In this document: piece by piece, positions 60,870 to 63,934 of the stretch
Layout of the letters: the number at the start of each line of letters is the position of its first letter
Numbering within the stretch: position 1 is the first letter of the stretch
NCBI GenBank assembly: GCA_009777995.1
Contig: WRKT01000002.1
Span: 1 to 64,000 of the forward strand
Reading direction: 5' to 3'
Length of the DNA: 64,000 bases
Source: Treponema sp.
GTDB taxonomy: Bacteria; Spirochaetota; Spirochaetia; Treponematales; Breznakiellaceae
Position numbers and translations under genes: made by a program
The notes under the pieces: generated by a model
Databases searched by the model: none
What the model saw: only the letters and a program-made list of their open reading frames with translations
What the model was told of the DNA's origin: nothing

Positions 60870-62000
60870 TCAAAAATACCCAAGCACCAACTCAAACGCC
60901 ACCTTAAGGCCCGGGAGCAGGCTGCTTATCTCGACAAACTCTTCCCTAGTATGTGCGCCTTCCCCAAGGTAACAGCCGACAGCGATGGCAGGGATTCCCA
61001 TTGATAATGGGATATTGCAGTCGGTTGAACCTGAATCAAACTTGGGTTCTATATCAAAGTAATTGCGAATTGCCGCATCAGCTTTATCCGTAAGAGCCTG
61101 CAGCTTTTCCGGGTCCACATCCCTTGTACAGGGGCGCTCCCCTACAACTTCTACATTGACACCTGCACCCTTGGCTCTGTAAAGTTCAACTGCAGCATTC
61201 AGGTGCTTCTCCATTTCGTCGAGGGCATCATTAGAATCAGAGCGGAACTCGTAAAGCATTTCAGCCTGTTGGGCAATTGTATTTACAGAAGTCCCGCCGC
61301 TGATTGTTCCAACATTATAAGTTGTAATACTATTCTCAGGCAATTTTACCGTATAAAGAGTGTTAATAAGAGAAGCCAGATAATGTATGGCATTCCTATT
61401 CCCGAACTTTCCGAAAGAATGTCCGCCCTCTGTGGTAACTTCAATGCGATAACGCTTTGAGCCTATCGATCCGTTTGTAATCTTACGGCAACCGCCGTCA
61501 AGAGAAATAAACTCTGTAACTCTCTTGCCAAAGTCCTTGATAATTTTCCTCGAGCCCTTCAAATTCCCAAGGCCCTCTTCACAGGAGTTTACGACAAAGA
61601 GTATACCTCCGGTTTTAGGCTGTAAACCATTTGCAGTTATATACTTTATTGCCATAAGCATTGCAACTATATTTGCAGTATCGTCTCCAACCCCGGGGCA
61701 GTAGATCCTGTCATTCTCAATTTTCAAAGGGAGCTCTTCAGTGTCAGGGAAGACTATATCACTATGGGCTATAAAGACCATAAGGGGATTATCATCGCAG
61801 TTAACCGGGTATACCACATTAAGGGCTTCATCAATATAAACCCCCTTGCACCCCTGCTTTTCAAGCCAAGCTTTACAAAACGCAGCTCTCTTTTCTTCGT
61901 TATGCGATGGAGAGGGAATCTTCGCCATTTCCACAAGAAGCTCGAACGCCTCTTCTCTGTGTTTTTCTATATAGTCCAGAACTTCCTTTTCTAATTTCAT
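60870..62000 (-). CDS. M20 family metallopeptidase
   Basis: A 376-residue dinuclear zinc peptidase: FIAHSDIVFPD (His and Asp), CPGVGDDTANIVAMLMA (bridging Asp), VVNSCEEGLGNLKGSR (catalytic and metal Glu), SLDGGCR and GEGAHTREEFVE (last His). A dimerisation domain lies between (VTTEGGHSFGKFGNRNA). It is closest to peptidase T/ArgE-type enzymes. The ATG at 62000 has GGGAG six bases upstream; an adjacent ATG at 62003 is nearly equivalent. An open extension upstream runs into the palindromic element and is not used. Confidence 0.9.
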   Translation of the reverse strand: MKLEKEVLDYIEKHREEAFELLVEMAKIPSPSHNEEKRAAFCKAWLEKQGCKGVYIDEALNVVYPVNCDDNPLMVFIAHSDIVFPDTEELPLKIENDRIYCPGVGDDTANIVAMLMAIKYITANGLQPKTGGILFVVNSCEEGLGNLKGSRKIIKDFGKRVTEFISLDGGCRKITNGSIGSKRYRIEVTTEGGHSFGKFGNRNAIHYLASLINTLYTVKLPENSITTYNVGTISGGTSVNTIAQQAEMLYEFRSDSNDALDEMEKHLNAAVELYRAKGAGVNVEVVGERPCTRDVDPEKLQALTDKADAAIRNYFDIEPKFDSGSTDCNIPLSMGIPAIAVGCYLGEGAHTREEFVEISSLLPGLKVAFELVLGYF

Positions 62001-62039
62001 CATTTTCTCCCTTTGTTTCACACAACTTTCAGGCAACTC

Positions 62040-62178
62040 GAAATTTTTCACACGGAGCTCACAGAGGGCACAGAGCTCACAGAGGAATTCAAAAGTGAGC
62101 CAACTCTAATAACTCTCTGTGTCCTCCGTGCTTCTCCGTGAGCTCTGTGAGAACCAAAACACAGAGTAGAAAAATTTC
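62040..62178. repeat. 139-bp palindromic element of 9-bp units with terminal inverted repeats
   Basis: The ends GAAATTTTTC (62040-62049) and GAAAAATTTC (62169-62178) are perfect inverted repeats. Just inside the left end are four head-to-tail 9-bp units of consensus CAC(A/G)GAGNN (62051-62086). Four similar units lie in the opposite direction at about 62113-62154. The whole can fold into one large hairpin. It lies between two same-strand genes and encodes nothing obvious. Similar CACAGAG-type repeats are seen in many environmental genomes. No target duplication is evident. Confidence 0.75.
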
Positions 62179-62194
62179 TATGTTCAGTGTAAAC

Positions 62195-63934
62195 CTACTC
62201 CCCAATTACCGCTCTAATATCCTTCTCGATAGCCTTAAGCTTCCTCCCCGCCTCTTCCTTCGCACCTGCGAGGCCGCCGCCGGCAAGCTCTGCGCAGCAG
62301 GTGGCGTAGAACTTTATCTTTGGCTCTGTGCCGCTGGGTCTTGCGCTTACCACTGTGCCGTCTTTAAGGAAGAACTGAAGCACGTCACTCGGTGCAAGGC
62401 CGTCTGCTCCGTTCTTTATATCTCTTACTCTCGCAATCTCGATCCCTCCAAGGCTCTTCGGGGGATTTTTGCGATATTCTTCCATTATCCCCTTCATAAT
62501 GGCAGGGCCTTCAATACCCTGGAAGTATTTGGAGATACCCACTTCTTCCCAATATCCACAGATCTTGTAAAGTTCATCAAGCCTGTCCAAAAGGCTCATC
62601 CCCTTGCTGCGCCAGTAAAGGCTCATCTCTGCCGTAAGAGCCGCTGCCGAAATTCCATCCTTATCGCGAACATCACCTGAGATATTATAGCCGTAACTTT
62701 CTTCAGTACCGTAAACCACGGTATTTGAGCCGGTATCTTCGCACTTTGCCCAAACCTCCGCAATCCACTTAAAGCCCGTAAGACACTCAAAGCACTTTGC
62801 CCCGTAATGCTCGGCGACCTTCTTCTGCATTCCGGTTGTAACTATCGAATTGACCATTGCAGGGTTAGCAGGCGTTCTCCCCGTTTCCTTCATCGAGAGG
62901 AATAGATAATCTGCGATAAGGGTACCAATTTGATTCCCTGTGACAAGGGTAAACTCGCCGGTTTTACCCGCTGTTGGAACCGCAATCCCAAAGCGGTCCG
63001 AGTCAGGGTCAGTTGCCATGACCAAATCCGCCTTTTCCTTGATTGCAAGATTGATAGCCATCTCAAGGGCCGCTGCCTCCTCGGGGTTCGGAAATGCCAC
63101 TGTCGGGAAATTACCGTCACCTTCGCGCTGTTCCGGCACTGTAATAACATTCAAGCCAAGCTCTCCAAGGACCCCTTCCACATGGAAGGCACCCGTGCCG
63201 TGCAGAGGTGTATAGACTATCTTAATTTCCTTTGCCTTTTCCTTGATAAGTTCAGGTCTAAATAGGCAATTTTTTACCATTTCACGATAGGGATTATCAA
63301 TCTCCTTATCGATTATGACCAAAAGCCCCTTCGCAAGAGCCTCTTCTCGGGCCATCTCCTTGATTTCAGTTACAGCATTTACTTCATTAATAATCCCCTT
63401 ATCATGGGGGGGGATTACCTGACTCCCGCCTGTCCAGTAGGCCTTATAACCGTTATAAGCCGGTGGGTTATGACTCGCTGTGACCACAACGCCGGTCTGA
63501 CAGCCAAGTTGACGAATGGCATAGGAAAGTTCCGGGGTTGGCCTTGGAGACGAGAAGAGATAACACTTTATGCCGTTAGCCGCGAAAATCAACGCAGTTG
63601 ACTCCGAGAATTCTGCCGAGAAATGCCTTGAGTCAAAGGCCACTGCAGCAGAAAGTGCTCCGGGGGATTTCGCCTTATCGGGGAAGGCCTTTAGTAAATA
63701 GGTTGCAAGCCCCTGGGTTGCACTCTTTACAACAAGGGAATTCATCCTATTATATCCGCCTCCAATAATACCTCTTAGGCCCCCGGTACCGAATTCGAGA
63801 TTTTGATAGAACCTGTCTTCCAATTCCTTGAAGTTTTCTGCAGCAAGCAGGTCTTCCACCTCTTTTCTGAAGTGACTATCATTCTCTCTTCTTATATAGT
63901 CCTTCGCCCTCTCGATAATCTTTTCTTTATCCAT
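62195..63934 (-). CDS. Phosphoglucomutase/phosphomannomutase family enzyme
   Basis: A 579-residue alpha-D-phosphohexomutase that interconverts hexose 1- and 6-phosphates. The phospho-Ser is in VVTASHNPPAYNGYKAYW, the Mg loop is ATDPDSDRFG, the sugar loop is YGTEESYGY and the phosphate-binding loop is SARPSGTEPKIKFYA. Length and the N-terminal RRENDSHFRKEVEDLL segment fit the PgmB/ManB-like group of spirochaetes and Firmicutes. AAGGA lies about 10 bases before the ATG. Glucose 1-phosphate formation for glycan synthesis is the likely main role. Confidence 0.95.
   Translation of the reverse strand: MDKEKIIERAKDYIRRENDSHFRKEVEDLLAAENFKELEDRFYQNLEFGTGGLRGIIGGGYNRMNSLVVKSATQGLATYLLKAFPDKAKSPGALSAAVAFDSRHFSAEFSESTALIFAANGIKCYLFSSPRPTPELSYAIRQLGCQTGVVVTASHNPPAYNGYKAYWTGGSQVIPPHDKGIINEVNAVTEIKEMAREEALAKGLLVIIDKEIDNPYREMVKNCLFRPELIKEKAKEIKIVYTPLHGTGAFHVEGVLGELGLNVITVPEQREGDGNFPTVAFPNPEEAAALEMAINLAIKEKADLVMATDPDSDRFGIAVPTAGKTGEFTLVTGNQIGTLIADYLFLSMKETGRTPANPAMVNSIVTTGMQKKVAEHYGAKCFECLTGFKWIAEVWAKCEDTGSNTVVYGTEESYGYNISGDVRDKDGISAAALTAEMSLYWRSKGMSLLDRLDELYKICGYWEEVGISKYFQGIEGPAIMKGIMEEYRKNPPKSLGGIEIARVRDIKNGADGLAPSDVLQFFLKDGTVVSARPSGTEPKIKFYATCCAELAGGGLAGAKEEAGRKLKAIEKDIRAVIGE

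Follow-up and report, generated by a model that had tools for sequence, protein, structure and literature searches.

A dispersed hairpin repeat in a Treponema genome and its probable gene-bearing counterpart, a GxxExxY element of the PD-(D/E)XK fold

Near one end of the window, by which we mean the whole 64,000-nucleotide stretch of Treponema sp. contig WRKT01000002.1 that was analysed, a 139-bp inverted repeat (62040-62178) separates two minus-strand genes, one for a phosphohexomutase and one for an M20 peptidase. Does this repeat serve the junction, or is it something that moves? The preliminary description proposed a miniature mobile or REP-type element, and that reading has held up well. 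The inverted repeat is one copy of a dispersed repeat family with many copies in its own genome and few in congeners, and elsewhere a partner gene lies between matching arms. We consider the window element to be probably a gene-less, MITE-like copy of a mobile family whose gene-bearing form consists of an arm, a GxxExxY gene, and the opposing arm. The features of the junction are collected in Table 1.

Table 1. Features at and around the inverted repeat, in window coordinates
Feature	Position	Strand	Basis
5' arm, four units CACGGAG-CT-CACAGAG-GG-CACAGAG-CT-CACAGAG, spacing 9	62051..62084	+	sequence and repeat search
Inter-arm spacer, 28-30 nt in window copy	62085..62114	.	consensus of 28 complete copies
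3' arm, four inverted units CTCTGTG-TC-CTCCGTG-CTT-CTCCGTG-AG-CTCTGTG, spacing 9, 10, 9	62115..62149	-	sequence and repeat search
Outer CACAGAG unit past A-rich linker	62160..62166	+	sequence, family comparison
Left 10-bp outer repeat GAAATTTTTC; absent from family consensus	62040..62049	+	sequence, consensus
Right 10-bp outer repeat GAAAAATTTC; absent from family consensus	62169..62178	-	sequence, consensus
Phosphoglucomutase/phosphomannomutase gene; stop codon 17 bp from the element's outer repeat	62195..63934	-	ORF and family match
M20 peptidase gene, ATG at 62003 chosen	60870..62003	-	ORF and family match; start inferred

The two facing arms, each with four CAC(A/G)GAGNN units, are present as first described. 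Within the window the pattern CACRGAGNNCACRGAG, allowing up to two mismatches, matches five times, always inside the element (0.41 matches expected; none of 100 shuffles reaches five). The 10-bp terminal repeats are indeed perfect, but they are absent from the consensus of 28 complete family copies and so are not the ends of the element. The mechanical M20 open reading frame starts inside the element, at a GTG at position 62051; the start that we chose has a GGAG about 5 nt upstream.

A search of the genome and its relatives for further copies, as the preliminary description advised, proved productive. The assembly (2.63 Mb in 59 contigs, 87% complete) contains 82 + 62 = 144 matches to the pattern, compared with 0 + 0 for the reversed-pattern control, and a DNA similarity search with the element returns 88 matches. 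Among 35 sources (the window and 34 fetched stretches) there are 28 hairpins with both arms. A typical one comprises four units, a spacer of 27-37 nt (18-85 nt in a few), and four further units. The spacer is near-palindromic, with a consensus of approximately TAGAGTTTGGCCAACTCTA, and the family consensus, likewise from the 28 complete copies, covers the arms, this apical near-palindrome, and an A-rich right border. Many copies are trailed by an outer unit like that of the window, with the consensus AcaGtG after an A run. Several contigs terminate at hairpin copies, and contig C20 opens with a tandem array of about 3.5 copies at a period of ~133 bp (L067 1-470). Direct repeats of at least 8 flank 5 of 22 copies, as against 46 of 462 mismatched pairs, which is not above chance as a sign of target duplication; two of the five come from the tandem array. 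The copies may be old, or their ends may not be correctly placed.

Three congeners, whose assemblies are 64, 97, and 77% complete, have 1, 1, and 10 pattern matches, so the expansion is recent or lineage-specific. A single copy held at the same place in all relatives, which would have pointed to a local regulatory hairpin, is not what is found: further copies exist, and in the two congeners whose mutase locus was read we saw no element next to that gene. The M20 part of the query has no match in any congener, which leaves no orthologous empty site for the window copy.

Some copies have a nested small hairpin like CACAGATTCGAAGAGCCGCGTAGCGGC in an arm or loop (L052 4670-4700, L072 ~1200, L083 ~870). 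On contig C47, an open reading frame between two hairpins (L052 4817-5245, minus strand) resembles the C-terminal part of an Rpn nuclease (25 bits, cut-off 52), and its initial residues are encoded by the repeat. Three more weak Rpn-like matches occur in this genome, one of which (C43) stops directly before a half-element.

The preliminary description also called for a transposase with matching ends. A partner gene between like arms does occur elsewhere, but in place of a conventional transposase it encodes a member of the GxxExxY family (TIGR04256, PF13366 PDDEXK_3). The Treponema genome has a single GxxExxY gene, whose end is 20 bp away from one hairpin; a second hairpin follows after another ~430 bp. 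No recognisable arm is found on the gene's far side within the ~250 bp up to the contig end, and its flanking inverted-repeat score of 15 is at chance level. Because this gene lies so close to a hairpin, we tested the association in 296 Spirochaetota genomes, counting GxxExxY matches over the cut-off. Of the 15 genomes in which the pattern matches 10 times or more, 13 have GxxExxY; of the 281 others, 50 do (Fisher p 5e-8). In G304, from the same family as the window's genome, the gene is enclosed by two full CACRGAG-type hairpins.

The flanks of the gene were then compared directly, an inverted repeat being scored when the two 160-bp flanks reach a Smith-Waterman score of at least 26. Among 92 near-full-length Spirochaetota matches (partial ones were initially left out), 88 loci are usable, and 56 of these have inverted repeats; 26 score under 22. 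The controls yield 8/1760 for shuffled flanks, 3/81 for sequence 300 bp further out, and 353/7554 for pairs from different genomes. Outside Spirochaetota we took the best 80 of 577 loci, found with a query that covered the GPG subfamily only, and dropped three already seen and two that were too short. The remaining 75 come from Bacteroidota, Verrucomicrobia, Planctomycetota, Chloroflexota, Acidobacteria, Proteobacteria, Cloacimonadota, and others, and in 52 of them the gene has inverted-repeat flanks (6/1500 for shuffled flanks, 3/192 for far ones). Pairs from different loci score high here as well (845/5550), because the arms are alike across phyla. One of three archaeal loci, from Methanosarcinales, reaches the threshold. 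Of 169 loci, 133 have unit arrays near GxxExxY, and 10 have them at a distance of 350 bp. The arms and the GxxExxY gene thus belong together across phyla.

A single query finds GxxExxY in 8 of 72,556 plasmid records and 0 of 50,697 phage records, so carriage by plasmids or phages is no general route for the gene. We note that in G302, again from the window's family, diverged GxxExxY genes are paired side by side, and the arrangement is repeated on several contigs (L252, L255, L258-L263). The accessible part of PMC12085832 also lists a GxxExxY gene for a virus that infects the haptophyte Chrysochromulina parva, an entry that would extend the family to eukaryotic viruses.

Similarity of arms and proteins, compared as k-mers in a Mantel test, gives a weak correlation (rho 0.119, reached by 0/300 permutations; far flanks 0.032, 15/300), and the cross-phylum value (0.069, 16/300) is not clearly different from its control (0.043, 14/300). 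As these tests were weak or unclear, we turned to unit classes, which were defined after the arms had been inspected: AG (CRCNRAG), AT (CRCNRAT), and GGAT. Among classed loci, GPG-type proteins go with AG arms 96 times and with GGAT arms 3 times; GxGF-type proteins go with AG arms once and with AT or GGAT arms 19 times. Placed on a tree of 91 Spirochaetota proteins with 59 classed tips, arm class requires 4 changes (300 shuffles: minimum 16, mean 20.9). Two classes coexist in eight genomes. The rule has exceptions. Four GPG-type genes at the Bacteroidaceae radA site carry AT arms, and there the GPG motif fails as a predictor of arm class. G274 and G195 have many CACRGAG matches and no AG-armed GxxExxY was found in them, and G075 and G189 have such matches yet no GxxExxY. 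These exceptions aside, arm type tracks the phylogeny of the nuclease.

Junctions that are occupied in some genomes and empty in others show how the units come and go. In 101 Flavobacterium genomes we examined the gap between two genes that we take, from resemblance, to be methionine aminopeptidase (map) and a methyltransferase; 40 gaps have both flanking genes on one contig, and 14 further full-length matches were read as loci. Nineteen of the 40 gaps are empty, and 13 hold a gene with AT arms (13/13 AT), its GKG[HF]/GRGH box being recognised in 12. The other gaps are varied: G331 has AG arms around a broken gene, G319 a 233-bp internally deleted copy that retains its arms, G383 a 109-bp AG hairpin without a gene, and five gaps are 65-145 bp long, some with unit traces. 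At 11 further loci of this junction, AG arms surround a GPG- or GSG-type gene. Two loci, L391 and L398, contain a different palindrome, of the CAAGGTTTTNAAAACCTTG type, beside unit traces.

The radA junction of Bacteroidaceae (201 genomes; 25 loci and that of B. finegoldii read) gives a similar range. Twelve of the 25 loci are empty, at 11-40 bp. Five have arms and gene (AG in G469; AT in G563, G596, G610, and G582), three are 87-133 bp long, at least two of these with traces of arrays, and the content of the last five is different or could not be read. The B. finegoldii locus has AG arms and the termini TTCACC and GGTGAA. Read by eye, the radA insertions have no evident target duplication. 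From empty, gene-bearing, and remnant junctions it follows that gene and arms are gained and lost jointly and that the arms can outlast the gene. At a fixed junction the gene-plus-arm unit is there in some genomes and lacking in others.

The sharpest record of movement comes from the spirochaete G131, whose arm units are GGGGAT-like, unlike the CACRGAG units of the window. Five copies of ~500 bp (L184, L196, L197, L458, L461) lie in unrelated flanks with GxxExxY as their sole gene, 91-97% identical where compared and 93-97% identical to L184. Their termini are CTGACWTCTACCCACA and its complement, and they have a 65-bp inverted repeat of 77% identity. L463 is a truncated copy with one end missing, and L487 (260 bp) keeps both ends and has lost most of the gene. 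The 9-bp flanks of the five full copies and L487 match at 9, 8, 8, 7, 4, and 8 of 9 positions, the L184 match requiring a one-base offset in a C run. Five of six copies therefore show a 9-bp duplication, with 7-9 of 9 positions matching, and of 720 pairings of the flanks 2, the true one included, do as well as the observed set. A 510-bp element is 96% identical in G268 and G116, and its flanks differ. In at least this one GxxExxY subfamily, that of G131, the element ends are sharp and the insertions at several loci are flanked by 9-bp target duplications.

The protein itself, ~125 residues long, matches PF13366 with an E-value of 5.6e-35 and belongs to a family of the PD-(D/E)XK fold. Glu26, Asp66, Glu76, Lys78, and Gln90 are among the residues invariant in 45 sequences, and Asp66, Glu76, and Lys78 correspond to the D...E-x-K active-site residues of the superfamily. 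The AlphaFold2 model (pLDDT 95) is PD-(D/E)XK-like. It compares with a Cas4-type structure (4ic1, Z 9.7), with 3ijm (9.2), and with an archaeal Holliday-junction resolvase (HJC, 1gef, 7.0), although Z values under 8 often arise by chance. Foldseek finds nothing below 0.001 for the model (best E-value 0.0037), and a sequence search of solved structures with the GxxExxY profile gave no match (best E 0.32). PD-(D/E)XK enzymes hydrolyse DNA.

From this combination we infer that the GxxExxY protein moves the element. Each arm is a row of ~9-10-nt units (CACRGAGNN in the window), the two rows standing in inverted orientation around one small PD-(D/E)XK gene. In the mechanism that we propose, the protein would bind the unit arrays as its sites, cut at the element ends, and mobilise its own element as well as copies that lack the gene, that of the window among them. 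Strand joining might fall to the protein itself, to a partner, or to the host's repair of a staggered cut. The window copy is best explained as a gene-less member of this element family, in view of its unit sequence, the expansion of its family, the neighbouring GxxExxY gene, and the links elsewhere.

The strongest competitor holds that a conventional transposase, DDE or other, mobilises the hairpins in trans as ordinary MITEs, with GxxExxY as a passenger in, for example, defence or recombination. The resemblance to MITEs and their parent insertion sequences is real: the elements have terminal inverted repeats and internally deleted derivatives that keep the two ends (L487, G319), and one GxxExxY subfamily makes target duplications. 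They differ in having no DDE transposase gene and GxxExxY as their only gene. Terminal inverted repeats and 9-bp duplications are typical of conventional insertion sequences, and two of the five full G131 genes contain stops, yet those copies show target duplications. Moreover, according to the accessible part of PMC10327210, no autonomous transposase with the PD-(D/E)XK fold is known, and a fold not known to transpose alone favours the passenger. Against this, the terminus, at up to two mismatches, matches eight times in 394 kb of G131 sequence (~9% of 4.3 Mb), all at four GxxExxY-element copies (deletion derivative included), and never beside another gene set. The gene lies between arms in many phyla with an arm type that tracks its phylogeny, which a passenger would not need, and PADLOC matches GxxExxY to no defence family. 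We regard a passenger role as unlikely, while still giving it some weight.

Also to be compared are the Rpn proteins (YhgA-like, recombination-promoting nuclease/putative transposase), which are likewise small PD-(D/E)XK proteins encoded by singly mobile genes. As far as the accessible text of PMC5350276 goes, rpn genes are gained and lost one at a time, including at operon junctions like panC-panD, and that of PMC10327210 describes variable ends and no target duplications. GxxExxY elements differ in having defined inverted arms.

REPIN/RAYT systems combine short palindromic extragenic repeats in many copies, sometimes in tandem, with one small gene flanked by them. A REPIN-type repeat moved by a RAYT, a Y1 tyrosine transposase (TnpA-REP), would share with the present family its many palindromic copies, its occasional tandem arrays, and its single small gene between the same repeats. 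Dozens of hairpins occur in the window's genome, and the ~133-bp period of the C20 array recalls REP/BIME arrays (PMC2817692, in the part available). The arms, however, are rows of 9-nt units about a 28-37-nt spacer, related arms are tied to GxxExxY across phyla, the protein has a PD-(D/E)XK fold instead of that of a Y1 transposase, and at least one subfamily makes 9-bp target duplications. We find a RAYT-driven origin improbable.

That the element acts locally at the mutase-M20 junction, as a regulatory RNA hairpin or a terminator, is more improbable still. This reading would gain from the position between two same-strand genes and from the predicted RNA fold of -62.4 kcal/mol (z -6.1, equalled by 0/200 shuffles; DNA fold z -6.9). 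On the other hand, there are dozens of copies elsewhere in the genome and no trace at the mutase of two congeners. No terminator-like site (a GC-rich stem with a T run) is found at 61900-62300, and Rfam places no family on the element in the four loci searched, so that both a terminator and an RNA switch were rejected; the proposed block to mutase read-through finds no support in the sequence. Rfam hits are confined to tRNA and 6A RNA elsewhere, the latter (RF02925) above gathering score at L003 151-200, minus strand, ~1.3 kb from a hairpin.

Nor is complementarity of the unit pairs preserved among copies. The cruciform arms noted at the outset do fold far beyond shuffles, but the palindrome is imperfect: across 22 own-genome copies, the R/Y position forms Watson-Crick pairs in 41 of 88 unit pairs, against a shuffled mean of 50.2 (4987/5000 shuffles are at least as high), the window copy being left out for the 3-nt linker in its 3' arm. 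Partners at this position are G-C in 3 of the 88, G-T in 27, and A-C in 19. Selection for base pairing was accordingly rejected, and the family palindrome seems to shun perfect pairing. Because partner units are less complementary than chance, we read the rows as putative binding sites, which they resemble more than a conserved RNA stem. The strong hairpin predicted for the window element could still influence expression, although this copy probably has little function of its own at the mutase-M20 junction.

Finally, spread by recombination or tandem duplication with no dedicated enzyme would suit the C20 array and own-genome copies without target duplications, and is scarcely credible beside the sharp-ended, duplication-flanked G131 copies at unrelated loci and the nearly identical element in the differing flanks of G268 and G116.

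The hairpin itself is of a known kind, a palindromic MITE-like repeat; new is GxxExxY as the partner of its arms. In the open literature, with most subscription journals outside its coverage, we found no paper linking GxxExxY or PF13366 to repeats, and no mention of repeats was found in the accessible portions of papers naming GxxExxY, PF13366, or PDDEXK_3. The gene-bearing element that would be the source of the hairpin looks undescribed in the literature searched.

More broadly, and more tentatively, with the balance tipping slightly against it for now, GxxExxY proteins may be the mobility enzymes of very widespread transposons, the first autonomous ones on the PD-(D/E)XK fold. The CACAGAG-, CACGGAT-, CGCAAAG-, and CAGGATT-type hairpins of many phyla would then be gene-less derivatives, and each nuclease clade would read its own unit array. 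CACAGAG-like repeat rows in genomes of many phyla and GxxExxY genes each gain a partner. A one-gene element defined by its arms, termini, deletion derivatives, and target duplications makes transposition driven by a PD-(D/E)XK protein directly testable, and it would also account for many small operon-junction hairpins and for the repeat-encoded ends of annotated proteins.
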